Of a stretch of 64,000 bases of DNA, positions 35,752 through 53,600 are shown piece after piece. The notes below the pieces were generated by a model. The model did not search any database. It was given only the letters and a program-made list of their open reading frames with translations, and was not told the origin of the DNA. Within the stretch, counting starts at the first letter, position 1, and every line of letters begins with the position of its first letter. The DNA is from Cloeon dipterum (taxonomy: Eukaryota > Arthropoda > Insecta > Ephemeroptera > Baetidae), in NCBI RefSeq assembly GCF_949628265.1, contig NC_088786.1, forward strand, positions 39,949,681 to 40,013,680, in the 5' to 3' direction. The position numbers and the translations under genes are program-made.

Positions 35752-38700
35752 ATGAATTTTTGTGCTTTCTATGTGGCATCAGTAGCTTTGATTTATTTGT
35801 TATTTGTTAATGGAGCACCGAAAAATCAAGTGAGTATACACATTTAGAATTAAAAATTGTATCAGGAAATCCATTTTCACAGGATAAAAAGATTAAAACA
35901 GTAAAAATTAGACTTCCCGGTGCAAATTATGGTAATTTATATTTTTCGTTTTCATTTAATTTTTAAAATAGGAGATTCATACTAACAGCTCCAGTTCGAG
36001 TAAGAATTTCAAAGGTTTATTCGCGAAGGCAGAACATCGTTAAGTGTTGCGGATTCAAAAAATGCCTGGGGACTGCAAACGGGACGGCAAATAGAAAGAC
36101 ATCTTCAACAAAGACAAGCGCCGGACAATTTCAAGTAATTTAAAATTTAAATGAAGAAATTAATCCAAGATCCAGCACGACACACGGATAGTTTCTTTCT
36201 TTGTACATGTACAAACTAATCCAGATCAGCAGGACTCAGAGGATGGATTTATTTCCTTTATTGACTTAATATCGTCTTAACATTCTTAATTTTCCATTTC
36301 TTTCTCTTCAATAAATTTTGATTTTGTGTTGACTTAAAATAAAACAACTTTCTTTGTGAAATAACGAATTATTAATATTATTAACATATATTTGAAATTT
36401 ATTCTCTAAGAGCGATGGCATATCCACAATGTTGCCCACCCGAGGGGCCCCTGCTTCGAGCGGAAGCATTAATTCCGGTGCAGGCCTGACTGCGAGCGAC
36501 GAGCTAACAGCATTAGATGAAAACGTTGAAACAAGTATGTCAAGTACAATCATCACGTTCCCCGAAAGTAAAATAACGTATGCAAAAGGTAGCCCGAGCG
36601 TCAGTGTGAGCAACGGGGACAACAGCACGCCTCAAGGGACAGAAGATATTACGGTTCGTGACGTCATCATGACTGCAGGTCAAGAAAATGAACCAATTTT
36701 TGGAACCAAATTGCCTAAATCTCCATCCATTATTGGTTCAACAACTGATGCAATCATCGGCAGAACTTCGTTAACAGGGTCGACAGCTTCATCCTTGGAA
36801 ATCCCTCGTCAAGATTCAACAACTAAAACGACGGCAGAAACAGTGAAAACCACTTCTCCATCAATAGTTGTTGCAACATCTGTGGCAACAATAACTGTGG
36901 CAACAACGTCAACCACTTCGACAGCATCAACATCAATTAGCACAACAACTACGGTAAGCTCAGTGGATCTGGTTTTGTGAAAAGGTTCAGAAAACATGGT
37001 TTAGCCTCCGGCACCATGCCGTTTAACCTGCACGGAATTCAACAACTACCTTTTGGTAATCTAATTTTCTATTTAAAGACCGTCACGCAATCCATTCGAT
37101 TCTTGAGAGTCGAATAAGATAAAGTGGATATTTTTTCCAATCAAAACATCCAACTTTTTTACCGCCAAAACAATATGAACCTCTTTGCGAGAAGTGCGCA
37201 TGCGTCAGAGCTGGCTAGATGTGACAAAGAAGTCGTTCGTTGCAATTTGTAGCCGTGATACCCCTGTGTTCCCGCCCGGTGCCCCGCCTGAGTCAAAAGT
37301 TTAGTTAGGATCAAAAGCACCACAGGTCAGTGGTGCGCTCGGCCAATCAATGCGCAGCGCGGGAACGCCAATCAGTCCAGAGCTGGAGTTGAGCGAACGC
37401 GCGTGTTGGATGCAGGCGGAGTAGCGCCAATCCAGGACTTTCGTGTGCGTTCAGGGCGGTCATGGTGACCTGTGGAGGTTGTTTCTTTTTGCACATAGCG
37501 CTAAGGTTTATAGATTTTGTAAGTTAACAATTTGTGCCTTGAGCAAAGAATCCAAAGTGAGGTCATCTTTCCCCCTAGACACCAACCCCAACCCTGTGAC
37601 CGCACCCTCCCAGCGAGGGTGCGAGCTAGAGCGTATTCAAGAAAGGTTTTTCTGTTCCTGTCCTGACCTGTTCCGGGAAAAAAATTTCCTGTCCTGTCCT
37701 GTTCCTGTTCAAAAATTGGATTTCTGGTCCTGTCCTGTTCCTGTTTTTTCCTGTTTTTATTTTCTCAAATTTAATTCCAATTTACAAAATGGTCTTCTAA
37801 TTCTTCCATATTAATATGTATACCTGTTTTTTGTTTGCTTTTAATTATTTGAAACTTACATTTGACAGATTTTCTAAGTGTTTAAATTTTGATCGAGTAT
37901 ATAATTTCTAATTCATCTAATTCCCCTTTATGAACAAAACGGAAAAAATAATATGCACCCCGCACAGAATTTAGTATCCAACAAAAATTATCACAAAAAG
38001 TGCTTAAAATGAAAAAGAATTGCAGAAAACCCCTAAAAAATGTTATTTTTGATACAGTTGATAGTTTCCCTAAAACGCTTGTTTTTCAAACACCGCTGAC
38101 TGTAATTAAAGAGTTGTGCATTTTAATTAAAGCTTTAGAGCAAAATTGTAAACGTCGTGGATAATTTTTAGGTTTTTTTGGAAAAATATTTATAGTTACA
38201 TGAAAGAAAGTAAACATTGTAAGGCAGTATCAAAATGAAAAGTAATGCTGTCTGTAAATGAGGTATATTTGATTTAAAATAGACCAAGAATGGAATTGTT
38301 TTGAAACAAAATTCTTGTCTTGTCCTGTTCCTGAAAAATATTTTCCTGTCCTGCCGGAATTCCAGGAAAAAGCAGGAATTCTTGTTTCCTGTTTCAATTT
38401 CCTGTCTTGGAATACGCTCTAGTGCTGCGAGCGCGAGAGCGCTAACCGAGCCCTCCGAGTTACGAGCAGCAGCCGGCACAAAGAAAAAGTGCTCGAACGC
38501 ACGCTCTGACGCATGCGTAGTTCTCGCATAATAAACGTTCGCATTGCTTTGGCGGGAAAAAAGTTCGCACATCGCGCTGCACTTTTTGGTCTGGAAAAAT
38601 ATCCACTTGACCAAATTCGACCCTCAAGGATCGATTGGTGTGCTTAAAAACTTCGTTAAAACGATCTCTAAATCAGCTTTGAATTTTTTATCAGAACCCA

Positions 38701-41700
38701 ACGGAAAAACCCTCTCCAAGTGAGTATTGGACTAGACAGAAAATTAAACAATAAAATAAAATGTATAAATTATAGTGGATGGTTCATTAGAAACCGTGAC
38801 AAAATGTACTAAGAAATACTTCGTTTCTAAAGCGTCCGTAAGTAAAACATTGCAACGATATTTGAAGGCGGAAGAATGAGAAAAATTTATAAATTTAGTT
38901 GACGAGAAATGAAGCAGCTTTAAAATGCAAGGCGTTGGACATGAAACTTCTGACCGTAAATTCTCTTGAGGAAATGGACTGTCTGGCTTCTTTAAAAGGT
39001 CTGATGATGCATAAATAATATTCATACAGAGATTGAGATTTTAAAACTGATCAGCGGAAACATATTGGACGAGTGGCTCAAATGAAGATGTTACTTGTGA
39101 CTTGCAAAAGAAGTACGCGTGGTGCTCAACGGGGTACAATGTGTCATCGTCGCTTCTCTCTTCGCCCAAATTCTGGCTGTCAACCACCGCAGCTCCTTCC
39201 ACCCTTGAACGTTGCCTGGCGCTGGTCAACTCCAATAACGCTGCCCAAAAAGGAATGGTTCACAGAAATTGCAAGGATACTTTGCCCTACATCTGTCAAT
39301 ACCCAGTCGACTGTCCTCAGCAGTGCATTAAAAACGTCAGTATTTGATGGAAAAAAAATAGGAAAATTTATCTAGAATAATTAATCATGTACAGACTTCC
39401 CTGTTTGACTCAACTGGAAATTTAAAAGGTGTATAAACTCTTTAAAAATTAATTTGTTAACCCTCCTTTTTGACCTCTTAGACAAAAATTCCTATGGTTT
39501 TTGGATTGACATTGGCATCTACACATATCTCCTCGGGAACAGACCGGTTTCTCACTTTTTTAGTTTTTATAAATATTAATTTTCTTTATGGTCAGATGAC
39601 TTGGCTATCAAACTATCTACAATGTTGTGCCTTGGGCATGGAGGCACTCAACATCGACAACATTGCCGAGCAGCTGGCCCTGACAACATTTTCTCGCGGC
39701 TTCAACACAAGTTCATTTTATTAAAAATCGTATAAATATAATATATATTTGCGGTTTAGCCACCTGGAAAGCAAACTTCAATTACTGGACATCTGGAACG
39801 TGGAAGGGGTCTCCTGTGGGACTTTGGTCGTGGTGCGAGCCCTCAGGTCCCGTGATTTTTGACCAGGGTCTGACCTGGGAACGTGGTCAGCCTGACAACA
39901 AAAATGGAAACGAGAGTTGCGTCCATTTCCGCTTCATCATGAACTCCACTGGCACGGTCTTGACCGACAGAAACTGCAGCAACAGTTTGATTTACGCCTG
40001 CAAGGTGAATTTTCAAAGAATTCTTGGGAAAATTTTAAAATGTGGTTTTTTTCAGATGCCAATCAGTGCAACTCCTAAGCCGTGCGTTGCTTCTTGTCCT
40101 AAAAATGTTTGCAAACGAGATGTAAATATATTTATTAAGGGTCAAATTCCATGTAGACAAACTTCAAATTTTTTTGGTTTATAGCAAAAATTTTTTGATG
40201 CAACTAACGCATTAATGAGTAAAGTTTAATTTAAAGTAAATTATATTAATCTGAATAATTCCAAATAAAGACTTTCTCTCGTACGGTGATTGGTACGACG
40301 GATGCGGCCGCAACTTCTTAACTTTTACCTCAAACTCGGTGAATTATTAAGATTATTATTTAATTAATTTCTTTCTACAAATACTTGAAAAATAGACAAA
40401 CTGGACCACAGCTTGGGATTGGTGTTGCAGCATTGGTTTAACCCTGGCTTCCATGGAGTCTGCCGGGAAAATAAGCTGCTACTCCAAAATTGTCTCCAGT
40501 GCGAAGATAATTTAAACTTTCGTCCTTCTTTTTTGAATTTGATTTCTAAAGAATTTGCGCCTACAACCTTTGGAGATTTCTGGATATCAGGTACAAACGT
40601 GGACTGCCCTTCAACCTTCCGTTGGTGCTCACGGAATCTCGATTTCATCGACTCCGATTTGAAATGGAAGGCAGGACACCCCGTTGCAGGATTAGGATGC
40701 GTTTATCTTGAAGTGAGAAACGGATCCGTGTTGTTGGCCACCGCCGATTGCAGCGAAAACAAAACTTTCCTTTGCGACGTCAGGAAAAACCAAACCACTC
40801 AAAAAGCGATGCAGGCAGAATGTGCTAACATTTGGAACATCACCAGCGGTGATTTTTATATATTTTTAAATTGATATCTTTGACATTGCTCTATATATGT
40901 ATAATAGCTCAAATTGACTTGCTCATGAACGTCACTGCTTTCCTGACTGCAAGCTTATCAATCAATTTAAAGGTTATTCTCAATAACTACAGAAAGTGCT
41001 TAAATAAGATCGATTTGACAAATATTCTGAGCACACCAATCGATTCTCGAGGGTCGAATTAGGTAAAATGGATATTTTTCCGGTGAAAAGGTCCAGCGCG
41101 CGAACTTTTTTCCCGCCAAAACAATATATGAATGCGAGAAGTGCGCATGCGTGAGAGCTGGTTTGAGCCGAGAGACCGCCTGTACGAACGACTTCTTGAT
41201 CACATTCAGACAGCTCTGACTCATGCGCACTTCTCGCATTCATATTGTTTTGGCGGGAAAAAAGGTCGCACGTCGCGCTGGACCTTTTCGCCGGAAAAAA
41301 TATCCATTTTACCTAATTCGACCCCCGAGAATCGATTGGTGTTCTCAGAAACTTCGTCAAAGATGGTCTCTAACTCTACATTAATTGTACGTGTTTTAGT
41401 GTTTTTTAAAATGCGTCGGAGTAGAAGTTGGATTGGTATGTCGAAACTTAATGGTTTAAGAAATAAATAAAATGTAATTTCAGTTTAATCTGGGTGCTCT
41501 GAACAAAATACCGATGCTGCGACAAATAGAATTCGTTTCCCAAGAGGAGCCTACGAAACTGGAAGACGGTTTTGTAGCCTTCGACCAATGCAGCGACAAA
41601 AGTTTAAATCATACTAAATTTTAACCGTAATCTTCATTTTAATTCTGAAACTTAGAGTTTGATGATGAGTGCGTGACTGCTCATGAAACCTACAAGTGCG

Positions 41701-43058
41701 GTCAGGAGAAGGCACCGCAATTGGTTTCTAAGATAATCAACAATAACCTCGGCAACGGAACATTTGTCAGAACTAATTTAAACGTGTAGGTGGGAGAGTG
41801 AAATGATTCATTTTTACTTAATTTTAAAGTACGCTCCACCGACTCCGTGTGTTCCGTTGCGTCGGACGTGCTGGTATTCGGAACATTTGCCTTGTGAAAT
41901 AAATGTAAAATAAATCTTTTGCTACCAAGCGTATTCGGTTGATTAACAAAATTCCAACTTCATAGCAAACAGCAATTGATACGCTCAACAGCAATGGATT
42001 TGGTATAGACACTTCACTCTCTATGTTTCAAGATAATCTATTTTTTATTTTAAGACAACTTTGGGTCCAGGGTTTTCTTTAATAACAAGACATTTTATAT
42101 CGGAAAGTTGGACCTTGCTGGCAATGTGGTGAGTGATTTAATCCATTATTTGAAAGATTGAAAATCGATCCCTGAAGAATCCGGTTGCGGCGTTCAAACG
42201 ATGCTGTGAGCTTGGAATGAAACTTTACGAGCCAGCAACCCTCGCTGATGTTCAAGCTGCTGACCGTATTCTCGGTAAAGAATTTGAACTGTCTCGAAAT
42301 TTAAACTTTTATATTTATACTAAATTATTCTGTAATTACTAATGATTGTATAGCGGTTTTTATATTCTTGTTTATTCTGCCTTTGTCATATAGATACATA
42401 AAATAAAATCACATAACGTTTTTGGACAGAATCGGCGATCTCTGCTGGCAAAATAGAGCAAAACGATTAATTATATACATTGTGCAACAGACCTCTTTCA
42501 AAAATCAATAACTTTTGAAAGAAAAAAAAAAATACAAAAATCACTTTTAAGACTCAAAAGTACAATTTTTTTATTTTTTCTCCGCGGAAGCAATTTTAAT
42601 ATTCTTAGCTCCAAACTGGTAAAATTCGAAAAATTAGATTTTGCGGCACTGTTTTGGTAGGTCGGTTGGGTTAACTTTACATGTAATTTCATTTAAAAAA
42701 AAAAAAACTCACTATGATACGACTTAATATTATTTATTATTCCTGTTGTGTTTAAGGGTCACCAACTCAAAAGTTCGTCGTTATAGCCGGCGAGACGGAA
42801 TTCATCAACCAAACGCACGAGGTGTGGTGTCGCAGCCGCGTTCTTTTGCAAGATAATATGTACGATACTGTCAATGCCAATAACCCTACATTTCAAAGGT
42901 ATACTTGTCGCGAGTCGATAATGAGCGTGTATCTTAAGTCTCTCAAATTGCATATTGTACGCATGGATACCATGAACATTCATGATATGTACATCAATCC
43001 GCAAAATTACACTCTCCCTTCAGGATATTTTTGCTCTTACATCTGTGAGAAACCTTGA
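35752..43058 (+). CDS. L1: secreted multi-domain protein, four C-type-lectin-like domains plus an odorant-binding-like domain (1080 aa)
   Basis: I place 26 exons: 35752-35829, 35883-35931, 35989-36134, 36411-36953, 38695-38719, 38776-38837, 38899-38998, 39055-39335, 39395-39428, 39482-39546, 39596-39710, 39760-40004, 40056-40121, 40185-40218, 40271-40338, 40396-40498, 40552-40848, 40908-40972, 41400-41435, 41484-41601, 41656-41783, 41830-41904, 41966-42002, 42055-42128, 42178-42274 and 42757-43058. They sum to 3243 nt with matching phases. Order: signal peptide (MNFCAFYVASVALIYLLF), basic segment, Ser/Thr-rich mucin-like region (about 92-272), three lectin-like domains (YWTSGS.., FNYWTSGTW.., FWISGTNVDC..), an odorant-binding-like domain with Cys 762, 793, 797, 840, 849 and 858, a Cys linker, and a fourth lectin-like domain. 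It is probably extracellular; ligands are unknown. Reading through the exon 4 donor would give a short mucin-like isoform ending at 36980. Confidence 0.8.
37077..38668. mobile_element. Family 1 MITE split by nested insertions (L1 intron 4)
   Basis: The left half is 37077-37240 (CATTCGATTCTTGAG.., CCGCCAAAACAATATGAAC, GAGAAGTGCGCATGCGTCAG). The right half is 38505-38668 (GACGCATGCGTAGTTCTCG, TTGGCGGGAAAAAAGTTCGC, GGATCGATTGGTGTGC). About 1.26 kb of other DNA separates them, and that DNA itself contains the element at 37629-38420. The segment 37245-37620 is GC-rich with several promoter-like GC stretches and no gene I can support. Confidence 0.75.
37629..38420. mobile_element. Inner TIR element with CCTGT-rich ends
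   Basis: AGAGCGTATTCAAGAAAGG at the left and CCTGTCTTGGAATACGCTCT at the right are inverted repeats, flanked by CTA/CTAG. The subterminal regions are runs of TTCCTGTCCTG variants on the plus strand at both ends, an unusual direct rather than inverted bias. There is no transposase. Confidence 0.7.
41011..41366. mobile_element. Foldback MITE, family 1 (intron inside the L1 odorant-binding-like domain)
   Basis: GAGCACACCAATCGATTCTC / GAATCGATTGGTGTTCTC and CCGCCAAAACAATATATGAA / ATTCATATTGTTTTGGCGGG arms are well conserved. It lies between the exon carrying the helix after Cys1 and the 36-nt exon with the Cys2-x3-Cys3 motif. Confidence 0.85.
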
Positions 43059-43911: not shown

Positions 43912-46900
43912 ATGATTATTCTCCTGATTTTACTCTGCTCAACGCTGGAACCTATTGTAAAGACTGAGAAATCTCAAATCATCATCACTTGATTTCGTTT
44001 CTTTAGCAAGCGGCAACAACCAAAAAGCCAACCAAAGTGCAAGTGCCGATAAAGTGCTCTTTGGGCGATTGCAGCCTTCATCATTCAAGACTCAAGGTAA
44101 AATAATCAGAATTTAGCTTTTCGATTTATCTTTAATAATTTTTTGAATAGAGTTTCCTTAGCTCTGCGCTGACCGAGGGTTAATTTATGAAATAGCTTTG
44201 ATTGTATCATTTAATTAACTTACATTCTGCCTATTTTAGAATTTGTATCAGTTTTGGCAGACAGTATGATCAAAACGCTTTTTTTAAATTCTTTCCGTCA
44301 GCCAAACTAAATAATTTAAAATTCCAGCGCCTTATTCTGCATTTATATCGGCTAATGTGGACTTGGGGGATGTATTTTACAAGTGCGGACGCATCTTTTA
44401 CAATAGCCACAATCAAGTAAGTGTCTTTTTGCTTCGGAAAATATAAATAAGGAGATTGAAGTTGAAACTATTTAAATATCTGTTCAGTAAAAAATAAAAA
44501 TACTACTAATTTAATTGCGTAATGCCCAAGGCTCCATTTGGAGCAGCCGCTCTAGTTTGTGCCAAGAGGAAAATGCAATTGGTTACGGTGGAAGAAGGAG
44601 CAAAGAACTTGGATTGTCTCGTCCCCAATTTGGACGAAATGACGTCAGAGGAGCAACAAAATCAGAGTGAAAATTTTCACATAAAAATTGAGGTGAAAAT
44701 AAAAGCTTTTCATTAGAATACTTTTTCGTTTGGACGAGCGGCATGGCCGAGGGGAGCAACTGCGGAAACGCGGCGTACTCGTGGTGCGCAGGAAACGGGA
44801 CCAGCATCGACGCGAAAGCGTTCGACCTGCCTCTGGAAGTTTCAAAAAAGGAAAGATGTCTTGCTCTTTCCAGGATGTCCAAGACGCTGGTTCGCATGAG
44901 TTGCACCACTCCTAATCACTTTTTCTGTGAAGTATAAAATTAAAAATATTCAGATGAGTGTGTAAAAGAGTTGTGTTTTAGTACAAGTGCAAAACTGTTT
45001 CATGCTTGAGCAACCAGCTGTGCGAAAGTAGTAAAAATGTATGAAATATCCACTGTTTAGGATAAATTTATAACAAACTCTTCCTTTAGAAATCTCTCTA
45101 TGAAGATGGGACTGGAAAAATAAAAGGTAAAAATGATAAATCATTTAATTAACAATTTCTCAAGGGGTTTTAGGTCGCGCTTTGAGTGGTGTTTGGGCAG
45201 AGTGGCAAAAGACGATTGGCTTCAATAAATATTCATACACGAGCTATATATTTGGCAACAAAAAAGTAACGCGAAGCTTCGATTTTCAGAGATAATTAAT
45301 TGATTGTTTGACCGTTACAAGGTGACTTGGACGGAAAATTTGAAGATTTGTTGCAGCTTGGGAATGAAGCCGATCAAAGTGACGGATGAGCTGCTTTTCG
45401 CGCTTAACAACGTGGGCAACGAGAGCAATCAAATCACCATCTTTAACACTCCTGGTCAGTAAACATTTGCATGGATGCTCAACGAGGCATATATGTATTT
45501 GAATTTATATAATTCAACTTTGAAAATTCACCTAAAACGCTTAATCATCAGATGTATTATATCGATTGCTTAAATTGAATAAATGAATTGCAATGTCCTT
45601 ATTTTAATCTCTGCTCAGCACTTCCCGTGGTCCCAATTAGCGGATAAAATTCACTTTTTTCACGATATTATTGTCTCTTATGTTGATCGCAGTGCGTAAT
45701 TTCAACCCAAGCGTAACTGAGGAGAGATATTTGATAAAAACTGCTTTCTGGACGGCGGCCACGCGGCAAGGGTGCGCCGGTCAGTACCGCTTCTGCTTTT
45801 ACGACGACATGGGTCCGTGGGACTCGCAGGACAAGTTTTGGGACATGGTAAACCCACGCGACGATGGATCGTGTCTCGCCGTCGACAGGGAGTACACGAA
45901 GGCCGGAACGCCGTTCGGGGTGCGGCAGATGCAATGCTCGTCACGCGGCACCAATTTCGCCTGTCAATTAGACGGCAAGAAGGTCGATGATTTCGTTAAT
46001 GGAGACCAGGAAATGGATGTTGAGGTTTCTATCTAGACTTTTAGTAAAAAATGACCTAATTTAACTTTTGTAGAGGGACAAGAAAGCTTGCGACTATCCC
46101 ATCTGCTCAGACCTCAAATACTGTCCACTCCATGTTAGTATATACTCTTCTTTACTTTAGTTTTGTCTCTCTAATTTTGAGCTAATTTTGTAGGAATCTT
46201 ACACTGGACTTTATAAAAACAAAGATCGACTTCTTTTTAGTATGCACATTACACTCTTAAACTCGAATCTTTCTAGTACCGAATATGCGTTTGAATGTAA
46301 ATTTCCTACGTTACAGAACCACACCTCTTGGGGGAGTGGAAAACAGCGTGCGGAGTTCGATATTTACTCCACAATGAAGACGTTAGCTTTTAAACCAAAT
46401 AAAGCCACGAAAAATATGCAATGTGTTCATTTATAGAAGTTTTGGCCTGATGCTCTTGAATTTTGCTGTTCCCTGGGAATGCGTCTCGTATCTGTGCAGT
46501 CCATTGAAAAATTAGTCTGCCTAGAACAAATTGTAGGGGATGAACAGTTTGGTTACTGGACTTCTGGAACGAACATGAACTGCTCAAATCAGCGATATCG
46601 GTAGATATATATAAATTAAAACCATAATTTTCCATACTTGAATTTGCTTTCACGCCAGTTGGTGCTCACCTGAAATTAGAGACTTCATCAAACCAAGTTT
46701 GAATCTCGACAACAGATCTATTAACTTCAGGCCAGATCCAAATAGTTTGTTAACATCTAATTTTAATTGGTTGCAGTTGTTTATCTCAAAATGCTTTAAG
46801 TTCCTATTAATCCTGAAACGTCTTCAAAATTATGCGTTGTATTGCAAAAATCAACGACTTTGGGGCCAATTTTGACCGTTGACAGGTGTGAAATGTCGGT

Positions 46901-50628: not shown

Positions 50629-53600
50629 ATGATTATTCTCCTGATTTTACTCTGCTCAACGCTGAAACCTATTGTAAAGACTGAGAAATCTCAAATCATC
50701 ATCACTTGATTTCGTTTCTGTAGCAAGCGGCAACTACTACCAAAAAGCCAACAAAAGTGCCACAAAAAGTGCCGATAAAGTGCTCTTTGGGCGATTGCAG
50801 CCTTCATCATTCAAGACTCAAGGTAAAACAATCAGAATTTACGTTTTCAATTTATCTTAAATCATTTTTTGAACAGAATTTCCTTAGCTCTGCGCTGACC
50901 GAGGGTTAATTTATGAAATAGCTTTGATTGTATCATTTAATTAACTTACATTCTGCCTATTTTAGAATTTGTATCAGTTTTGGCAGACAGTATGATCAAA
51001 ACGCTTTTTTTAAATTCTTTCCGTCAGCCAAACTAAATAATTTAAAATTCCAGCGCCTTATTCTGCATTTATATCGGCTAATGTGGACTTGGGGGATGTA
51101 TTTTACAAGTGCGGACGCATCTTTTACAATAGCCACAATCAAGTAAGTGTCTTTTTGCTTCGGAAAATATAAATAAGGAGATTGAAGTTGAAACTATTTA
51201 AATATCTGTTCAGTAAAAAATAAAAATACTACTAATTTAATTGCGTAATGCCCAAGGCTCCATTTGGAGCAGCTGCTCTAGTTTGTGCCAAGAGGAAAAT
51301 GCAGTTGGTTACGGTGGAAGAAGGAAAAAAGAACTTGGATTGTCTCGTCCCCAATTTGGACGAAATGTCGTCAGAGGAGCAACAAAATCAGAGTGAATTT
51401 TCACATAAAAATTGAGGTGAAAATAAAAGCTTTTCGTTAGAATACTTTTTCGTTTGGACGAGCGGCATGGCCGAGGGGAGCAACTGCGGAAACGCGGCGT
51501 ACTCGTGGTGCGCAGGAAACGGGACCAGCATCGACGCGAAAGCGTTCGACCTGCCTCTGGAAGTTTCAAAAAAGGAAAGATGTCTTGCTCTTTCCAGGAT
51601 GTCCAAGACGCTCGTTCGCATGAGTTGCACCACTCCTAATCACTTTTTCTGTGAAGTATAAAAATTAAAAATATTCAGACGAGTGTGTAAAAAGTTGTTT
51701 TAGTACAAGTGCAAGACTGTTTCATGCTTGAGCAATCAGGTGTGCGAAAGTAGTAAAAATGTATGAAATATCCACTGTTTAGGATAAATTTATAACAAAC
51801 TCTTCCTTTAGAAATCTCTCTATGAAGATGGGACTGGAAAAATAAAACGTAAGAATGATAAATCATTTAATTAACAATTTCTCAAGGGGTTTTAGGTCGC
51901 GCTTTGAGTGGTGTTTGGGCGGAGTGGCAAAAGGCGAATGAATTCCACACAAATACATACACTAGCTATATATTTGGCCACAAAAAAGTAACGCAAGGCT
52001 TCGATTTTCAGAGATAATTAAATGATTGTTTGACCGTTACAAAGGTGACTTGGACGGAAAACTTGAAGATTTGTTGCAGCTTGGGAATGAAGCCGATCAA
52101 AGTGACGGATGAGCTGCTCTTCGCGCTTAACAACGTGGGCAACGAGAGCAATCAAATCACTATCTTTAACACTCCTGGTCAGTATTCATTTTGCTAACAA
52201 TTAGAGTCGCATAAGGGCGGTATTAACTATAGGGTTGGCGAAAACCGTCATATTTACAGATTTTAGCGTCTCTTCCAATGACGTCACAGACTGTTAGCAA
52301 AACAACGCTTGCAGTCAGTGACGGCATTGGATGTAGTGGGGCTAAATATCATCCGTCTGTCAATATGGCGGTGTCCGCAATTCCTAGACATATTTCTTAA
52401 AGTGTATAGCAGCTTTTGAATACACCGGTTCTCGTTAGATCACTATTCAAATAAATTTATAAGCACATTTCGTTCACTGACAAATGAAGATTTTTCATGT
52501 TATTTGTCAGTTATGGAGACCGCTGCGCGTAATACAGACCCAAACATAACTGAGGCGAGATATTTGATAAAAACTGCTTTCTGGACGGCGGCCACGCGGC
52601 AAGGGTGCGCCGGTCAGTACCGCTTCTGCTTTTACGACGACATGGGTCCGTGGGACTCGCAGGACAAGTTTTGGGACATGGTAAACCCACGCGACGATGG
52701 ATCGTGTCTCGCCGTCGACAGGGAGTACACGAAGGCCGGAACGCCGTTCGGGGTGCGGCAGATGCAATGCTCGTCACGCGGCACCAATTTCGCCTGTCAA
52801 TTAGACGGCAAGAGGGTCGATGATTTCGTTAATGGAGACCAGGAAATGGATGTTGAGGTTTCTATCTAGACTTTTAGTAAAAAATGCACTAATTTAACTT
52901 TTGTAGAGGGACAAGAAAGCTTGCGACTATCCCATCTGCTCAGACCTAAATTACTGTTCACTCGATGTAAGATTACTCCTCTACTTTGGTTCATCTCCAA
53001 AATTTTGAGATCGTTTTTCAGGAAATTTATACTGGACTATATAAAAACAAAGATCGACTTCTTTTTAGTATGAACATTTTTTAAGGAAATATATCGAAAT
53101 ATTTACCAGTGTAGATTTAAATTGGTTCCGGGCACCTTTTAAACTCAAATCTTTCTAGTATCCGAATGCGTTTTGATGTAAATTTCTTACGTTTTACAGA
53201 ACCACACCTCTTGGGGGAGTGGAAAACAGTGTGCGGAGTTCGATATTTACTCCACAATGAGAAGGTGAGCTTTTAAACGAAGTGCATGCACATTGTAAAT
53301 AAGACTAAGGCAAAAAATATGCTTTAATGTTCTTATAGATGAATTGGTTTGGTGCGCTCAACTTTTGCTGTTCCCTGGGAATGCGTCTCATATCTGTGCA
53401 GTCCATTGAAAAATTAGTCTGCCTAGAACAAATTTTAGGGGATGAAGAGTACGGATACTGGACTTCTGGAACGAACATGAACTGTTCAAATCAGCGATAC
53501 CGGTATATATATATAAATTTAAACCAAATTTTTCCATACTTGAATTTGCAATCACACCAGTTGGTGCTCACCTGAATTTAGAGACTTCATCAAACCGAGT

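Follow-up and report, generated by a model that had tools for sequence, protein, structure and literature searches.

The window, the whole stretch of 64,000 nucleotides analyzed from the mayfly Cloeon dipterum, contains a gene in which lectin-type domains are joined in one protein to a segment that, by its significant PBP_GOBP match, is an insect odorant-binding-protein (OBP) domain. The gene belongs to a family of roughly a hundred genes, arranged largely in tandem, for which 97 strong junction exons give the lower bound. With moderate confidence, we interpret its product as a large, probably secreted protein composed of a signal peptide, a mucin-like stretch, three C-type-lectin-like domains (CTLD-A, CTLD-B, and CTLD-C), the OBP domain, a Cys-rich linker, and a terminal module D, in which the conserved OBP would serve as a carrier of a lipophilic ligand throughout the family.

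Layout of the window gene

All coding features described here lie on the + strand, and the gene models were built from splice signals, without RNA. A signal-peptide-like exon (35752..35829; MNFCAFYVASVALIYLLFVNG...) with a GT donor was read from the letters, and its link onward to the later exons is tentative. The Ser/Thr-rich, mucin-like exon (36411..36953) was read in the sequence as an open frame. Both exons look right as parts of the gene, with provisional junctions. The intron preceding CTLD-A carries an insertion with 60-nt inverted repeats (37087..38643), whose arms are 78% complementary. CTLD-A (38776..39335) is encoded by exons 38776-38837, 38899-38998, and 39055-39335, the last of which includes the Cys linker CPQQC. 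CTLD-B and its Cys linker (39395..40121) occupy exons 39395-39428, 39482-39546, 39596-39710, 39760-40004, and 40056-40121, while CTLD-C (40185..40814) comprises exons 40185-40218, 40271-40338, 40396-40498, and most of 40552-40848. The splice sites of CTLD-A and CTLD-C were checked. The single open frame of the junction exon (40552..40848) encodes both the end of CTLD-C and the start of the OBP domain, with the first OBP cysteine at 40821. Since the lectin end and the OBP start share this exon, which recurs in the genome, separate neighboring genes are rejected as an explanation.

The OBP domain (40815..41765), assigned by Pfam PF01395, the six-Cys spacing, and OBPs in the PDB, continues from the end of the junction exon through exons 40908-40972, 41400-41435, 41484-41601, and 41656-41765. 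An intron within the domain holds a MITE-like element with 66-nt inverted repeats (41014..41361; arms 92% complementary). A Cys-rich linker exon (41830..41904; YAPPTPCVPLRRTCW...PCEIN), present in 22/22 copies of the local survey, and the terminal lectin-like module D (41966..43058 including the stop codon; exons 41966-42002, 42055-42128, 42178-42274, and 42757-43058) complete the gene. The 21 exons that run from CTLD-A through the stop codon (38776-43058) have AG acceptors and compatible phases, with GT donors at all 20 intron-ending exons; the chain encodes 793 residues, and its sole stop is the terminal one. A sequence-only reading of this DNA had proposed a continuous, phase-consistent gene of 26 exons, which the splice sites and phases uphold for these 21. 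The same reading had placed the OBP segment at 40780..41783, which is corrected here to about 40815-41765. The donor at 41784, corresponding to an exon end at 41783, reads gtgtag and adjoins an in-frame TAG, and the donor gtcagaac at 41766 agrees with the position in most paralog models. Since the donor lies upstream of 41784 in most paralog models, 41765 is the probable end of the last OBP exon.

Identity of the OBP and lectin-type domains

The cysteine spacing of the window copy is exactly C-x30-C-x3-C-x42-C-x8-C-x8-C, as claimed beforehand. This six-Cys spacing, with a first gap of x30 or x32, recurs in all 19 copies with a stop-free automatic model, and with it the C2-x3-C3 and C5-x8-C6 spacings that are diagnostic of insect OBPs; the count set aside three of the 22 copies (two models with stops and one without a resolved O2 exon). 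Pfam PF01395 matched the window OBP segment at 35.9 bits (E 8.6e-9; cut-off 22), bearing out the OBP-like identity proposed from the letters; with the initial splice choice, which carried one extra residue, the score was 31.5 bits, also over the cut-off. The model also matches 13 of 13 copies in alignment A1 (E up to 0.01). In profile comparisons, the segment aligned with LUSH from the first through the sixth cysteine; the E value was 4e-7 against 4pt1 and about 1e-3 against LUSH.

The likeness to classical OBPs (PF01395; LUSH, 1oof and 2qdi; "Odorant-binding protein 1d", 4pt1) comprises the six cysteines, the C2-x3-C3 and C5-x8-C6 spacings, and the Pfam match. Classical OBPs, however, are small and free, each a carrier with its own signal peptide, whereas the OBP domain described here begins behind CTLD-C in the same exon, lacks its own signal peptide, and forms an internal part of a protein at least about 800 residues long. 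Dimer OBPs and the mosquito D7 salivary proteins are multi-OBP-domain proteins that likewise hold the OBP fold inside a longer secreted polypeptide; they repeat that fold, and we know of none with lectin domains. A search of open-licence papers for an OBP-lectin fusion returned nothing but a corn-rootworm expression paper, in agreement with the sequence-only reading, to which the joining of the two families was unfamiliar.

Lectin_C (PF00059) matched CTLD-A alone at 24.9 bits (cut-off 22.6), while CTLD-B alone (22.2 bits) fell slightly below the cut-off and CTLD-C alone (20.2 bits) also scored below it; on the long chain, the model reached 38 bits over three stretches. Module D of the window copy gave no match to the Lectin_C model. 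C-type-lectin-like domains had been proposed on both sides of the OBP; for the module after it, the likeness is to the lectin units, in the layout of the exons and a CC-x-x-GM stretch, and not to the Lectin_C model. A weak profile comparison of module D with CTLD-B gave a probability of 90 over 31 columns around this stretch; the corresponding values were 48 for CTLD-C and 5 for CTLD-A. QPD (or EPN) is the calcium/sugar motif of C-type lectin domains; looked for in CTLD-B only, it was found as QPD..E.C in 21/21 resolved copies. An NCBIfam profile search returned two matches only, both far under their cut-offs. Arthropod multi-CTLD secreted lectins (PF00059) share with this protein the lectin-type units and the same kind of exons. 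Two such CTLD genes, one at about 44.7-46.6 kb and the other at about 51.4-53.6 kb, lie elsewhere in the window, with no OBP-exon match near either.

The gene family and its selection contrast

The local survey covered the window and 200 kb of the same contig, the latter picked for its abundance of matches. The junction exon served as the seed for each copy, so that other fragments fall outside the count. One domain order (CTLD-A, CTLD-B, CTLD-C, OBP, Cys-rich linker, and module D) and the same 16 core exons in sequence were found in 22/22 seeded copies. All splice sites were resolved in 20 of these copies, 18 of which were also stop-free (O5 excluded). This repeated order, the junction exon, and the genome-wide pairing support the earlier claim that OBP and lectin domains are joined in one protein. 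The family of about a hundred genes and the fast-evolving terminal lectin-like module go beyond that reading. A fragment at C1:40379747-40380886, limited to L, D2, and D3, was left out of the copy count.

Genome-wide, scoring of 150 of 393 candidates yielded at least 97 strong junction-exon matches; 96 of these lie at places other than the window copy, with an identity of at least 61% to the query. OBP exons lie within 2.5 kb downstream in 84 of the 97; the other 13 have no OBP exon downstream among the matches listed. None of 150 OBP-exon matches fell outside a junction-exon gene among the matches listed (about 150 of 180). Among the matches scored, 45 of 53 weaker junction-exon matches end ahead of the first OBP cysteine, while eight continue across the OBP start with an identity of 34-41%. 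These eight, seven at C3:13.737-13.780 Mb and one at C5:13.175 Mb, may represent an older branch of the family. A genome-wide PF01395 search, which gives neither a count nor an exclusion of stand-alone OBP genes, scored four candidates; the single place found, on C3 (E 1.6e-4), contains two stops and on inspection could not be assembled into an OBP gene. OBP profile scans gave pattern matches (146 for viral contigs, 42 for prokaryote contigs) and no relative, as expected for an insect protein. An insect origin of the genome is directly supported by five matches to the odorant-receptor family PF02949. Ser/Thr-rich open frames (at least 100 residues and 28% Ser+Thr) are found no more than 3 kb upstream of CTLD-A in 17 of 20 paralogs, and by the same strict test in 0 of 500 3-kb stretches drawn at random from the window. 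This test was relied on because a looser one (45 residues, 25%), passed by 18 of 20 copies, was passed by 211 of 500 controls too.

Across the copies, omega is about 0.1-0.2 in CTLD A-C and the OBP, and the frame is kept beyond chance. In seven non-overlapping pairs (14 of the 22 copies, hand-picked from tandem groups, with scaffold exons containing a model stop skipped), the scaffold (CTLD A-C) and OBP together gave an omega of about 0.14, indicating strong purifying selection, as against 0.49 for D2 and 0.92 and 0.79 for two parts of D3. Fisher tests on dN/dS, which treat changes as independent, separated D from the scaffold and OBP with p values of 2.5e-9 (D2) and 3e-11 and 3.8e-33 (the two D3 parts). 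Pooled over 22 overlapping pairs (for two of them, dS was undefined in some domain), omega for the OBP was 0.19. Mean identity of the OBP among the copies was 71%, and per-domain n ranged from 19 to 22, copies with stops or missing exons being excluded by domain. The existence of the family and its purifying selection rule out a lone curiosity or a decaying gene. For module D overall, binomial p values of 0.68 to 1 indicate no excess of amino-acid change above neutrality, and the omega of the variable D3 part differs among pairs, from 0.33 to 2.46; relaxed constraint therefore accounts for module D as well as diversifying selection does. Synonymous divergence in D is also higher in a wider set of pairs, so that gene conversion of the remaining gene may add to the contrast.

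Proposed role and alternative explanations

We infer secretion, glycan binding, ligand binding, and the role of module D from the domains and motifs. The mucin-like part and lectin domains A-C would anchor the protein in mucus, in the cuticle, or on glycan surfaces, and CTLD-B, with its calcium/sugar motif kept, would share in this putative anchoring. The conserved OBP domain would carry a small lipophilic ligand shared by all family members, while the variable module D may provide a separate binding partner for each copy. It is doubtful that the OBP segment is instead a disulphide-braced spacer between lectin domains, its fold kept without a ligand. Its position between CTLD-C and a Cys-rich linker like those directly after CTLD-A and CTLD-B would suit a spacer, and fold conservation alone is no proof of a ligand; however, conservation about equal to that of the lectin scaffold (pooled omega 0.19, identity 71%) is hardly needed by a spacer, although this argument is not decisive.

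A chemosensory role, in which the lectin and mucin parts would hold the OBP at a sensory surface (nymphal gills, antennae) for the delivery of waterborne odorants, seems unlikely. In its favor, the OBPs reported for C. dipterum, a set of 191 genes in a compact genome of 180 Mb, include 82 of 167 genes with gill expression, which is gill-specific in 25, and many are also expressed in nymphal heads (PMC7250882). That set resembles ours in its very large OBP expansion (the genome here is 190 Mb) and may or may not include the lectin-OBP genes; the word "lectin" has no occurrence in the main text of that source. Another mayfly, Parafronurus youi, reportedly has 10 OBPs, incomplete candidates excluded (PMC13205551). 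The diversity of the present family, however, resides in the terminal module and not in the OBP, whereas in a repertoire that codes for odors, the OBP pocket is where variation would be expected. An annotation artefact, with a stand-alone OBP gene wrongly chained between two lectin genes, is highly improbable: although the models rest on splice signals, an in-frame TAG lies just past the donor at 41784 proposed for the last OBP exon, and an ATG stands three codons ahead of the first OBP cysteine codon, the single exon encoding the lectin end and that cysteine recurs at 96 other places, the ATG-to-OBP stretch could not accommodate a signal peptide, the domain order is repeated in all 22 seeded copies, and the conserved donor sits upstream of the TAG.

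Returning to the anchored carrier, we tentatively suggest, as a possibility, that much of the apparent record mayfly OBP expansion consists of about a hundred secreted lectin-OBP proteins with a conserved scaffold of mucin, lectin, and OBP parts, one shared lipophilic ligand, and a module D diversifying in each copy, which would serve innate recognition, not olfaction, at mucous or gill surfaces. The usual reading of OBPs is as free odorant carriers, and OBP counts are used to infer the smelling ability of insects. With the OBP fixed inside a multi-lectin protein in about a hundred genes, an OBP match need not mean an olfactory carrier, and some genes counted as smell-related carriers may in fact encode proteins of quite another kind. 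The family allows a direct test of what the OBP fold does beyond olfaction, and it is a candidate diversified recognition family in a probably early-branching winged insect.

A single gene joining lectin-like and odorant-binding domains

The genome comprises 190 Mb in 10 contigs, with the window located on contig C1 (43.2 Mb), and contains five matches to the insect odorant receptor family PF02949, which marks it as that of an insect. On the plus strand of the window, 21 exons of the gene, for which the sequence-only reading gave a total of 26, lie between 38776 and 43058; each is preceded by an AG acceptor, and all 20 that end in an intron possess a GT donor. Their phases are compatible and yield 793 residues with a stop codon at the end only, which comprise three C-type-lectin-like domains (CTLD-A, -B, and -C), the odorant-binding protein (OBP) domain, a Cys-rich linker, and a terminal lectin-like module (D). 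Upstream of CTLD-A, on the same strand, lies a Ser/Thr-rich exon (from 36411), and the gene appears to start at 35752 with a signal-peptide-like exon, as the sequence-only reading had placed it. A short stretch encoding KCCGFKKC at approximately 36030–36090, also present ahead of one paralog, is possibly among the small exons between these two.

The exon at 40552–40848 carries the last part of CTLD-C (...DCSENKTFLCDVRKN) and continues unspliced into the first OBP cysteine. This junction exon supports the claim that both parts belong to one gene, and strongly disfavors the alternative of neighboring lectin and OBP genes. The proposed OBP cysteine spacing (30-3-42-8-8) is exact. With the corrected splice, the segment scores 35.9 bits (cut-off 22; E 8.6e-9) with the PBP_GOBP profile, covering positions 18–112 of 113, and all 13 copies scanned match this family. 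A profile built from these 13 copies was run against solved structures with E up to 0.01, and 11 distinct sequences were matched: Odorant-binding protein 1d (4pt1, E 4e-7), seven LUSH sequences (E 0.0013 to 0.0021), OBP 28a, a sequence labeled simply Odorant binding protein, and one with a gene-number name. The one LUSH alignment inspected runs from cysteine 1 to cysteine 6. For the final OBP exon, 41765 is the most likely end, because the donor there (gtcagaac) matches the site in most paralog models, and because the in-frame TAG behind the initially proposed donor at 41784 is thereby removed. Insertions with inverted repeats occur in the intron before CTLD-A (37087–38643) and, inside the OBP domain, in the intron at 40973–41399 (41014–41361); by eye, the two look related.

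Local copies and genome-wide extent of the family

With the exons of the window gene as queries, we searched the window and 200 kb of C1, picked where many matches had shown up, and seeded the copies on the junction exon. Twenty-two gene copies were found, including that of the window, and in each of them all 16 core exons have matches, always in one order. Every splice site was resolved in 20 copies, of which 18 are stop-free when the OBP exon O5 is left out, since its end was set automatically. The copy at C1:40610515, whose model contains a stop, has two pairs of the OBP exons O3 and O4 (at approximately C1:40610994–40612037), the first with a short O4, so that exons within the OBP domain are duplicated. 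A modeling error may account for the stop, since the automatic model used the first pair. The nearest paralog lies about 160 kb from the window gene at C1:39.83 Mb, where the stretch examined covers the exons from the last part of A3 through D3; its OBP exons O2–O5 are 90–100% identical to those of the window, and the module D exon D3 is 64% identical over the part compared. A fragment at C1:40379747–40380886 matches only the linker, D2, and D3, with no lectin or OBP exons before them. An open frame of at least 100 residues with at least 28% Ser+Thr was present within 3 kb before CTLD-A in 17 of 20 paralogs examined, compared with 0 of 500 random 3-kb window stretches; therefore, the mucin-like part seems to be a family trait.

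Since seeding on the junction exon biases toward fused copies, a genome-wide check with a junction-exon query was added, in which 150 of 393 candidates were scored. At least 97 matches form a sharp top group (E at most 6.1e-26, 61–86% identity), distributed over C1 (44), C4 (39), C5 (9), and C2 (5), and 96 of the 97 cover the first OBP cysteine. The other 53 scored matches show at most 49% identity; 45 end before this cysteine, and eight cover it with 34–41% identity. These eight, at C3:13.737–13.780 Mb (seven places) and C5:13.175 Mb, possibly represent a more ancient branch of the fusion family. A query made of the last two OBP exons found 180 matches across the genome, and the 150 listed were used for pairing. 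Among the matches listed, OBP exons follow 84 of the 97 junction exons within 2.5 kb downstream on the same strand, and none of these 150 OBP-exon matches lacks an upstream junction exon. For the 13 unpaired junction exons, the OBP exons may be among the further matches or may be absent. Two more lectin-type genes in the window (44692–46601 and 51416–53572) have CTLD exon matches with no OBP exon match at either, and are apparently a tandem duplicate pair.

Selection on module D

At the protein level, copies are on average 66–72% identical in CTLD-A, -B, and -C and in the OBP domain, against 35% in module D. In seven non-overlapping pairs of copies, omega (dN/dS) is 0.14 for the lectin scaffold with OBP, 0.49 for D2, and 0.92 and 0.79 for two parts of D3, a strong contrast (Fisher p 2.5e-9 for D2, 3e-11 and 3.8e-33 for the D3 parts). 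As wholes, D2 and the two D3 parts were not found above neutrality (binomial p 1, 0.68, and 0.94, respectively), and the second D3 part ranges from 0.33 to 2.46 across single pairs. D3 is not simply decaying, because it keeps its length (89–99 residues), the TH..WC.S motif is present in 19 of 22 copies, and 21 of 22 have a cysteine close to the C-terminus. Synonymous divergence over 22 overlapping pairs is 0.37–0.40 in D versus 0.18–0.29 outside it. Possible causes of this pattern are a relaxation of constraint, diversifying selection acting on certain sites, and gene conversion homogenizing the remainder.

Mayfly OBPs and proposed working of the protein

Among open-licence papers, searches for a lectin–OBP fusion brought up nothing but one corn-rootworm expression study (PMC8418000); the architecture may already be known from other sources, such as subscription papers or database annotations. 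The nearest report describes 191 OBP genes in Cloeon dipterum, with gill expression for 82 of 167, and the word "lectin" is absent from its main text (PMC7250882). In another mayfly, Parafronurus youi, 10 OBPs were reported with incomplete candidates excluded (PMC13205551). Hypothetically, a large share of the 191 OBPs could be fused lectin–OBP domains. The HRP antibody recognizes a glycan. Gill cells of C. dipterum were termed neural on HRP staining (PMC7250882). Given this glycan recognition, one hypothetical alternative is that these cells secrete glycoproteins.

The Ser/Thr-rich stretch, the four lectin-type units, and the 18 N-glycosylation sequons and 43 cysteines within the 793 residues suggest a secreted, glycosylated, disulphide-rich protein. 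The QPD..E.C sequence of CTLD-B, which we take to be a galactose-type calcium/sugar motif, is kept in all 21 resolved copies. Beyond the domain anatomy and the selection contrast, which are the observed parts, we infer that the lectin part would anchor the protein in mucus or on glycans, while the OBP domain would carry one lipophilic ligand common to the whole family and module D would give copy-specific binding.
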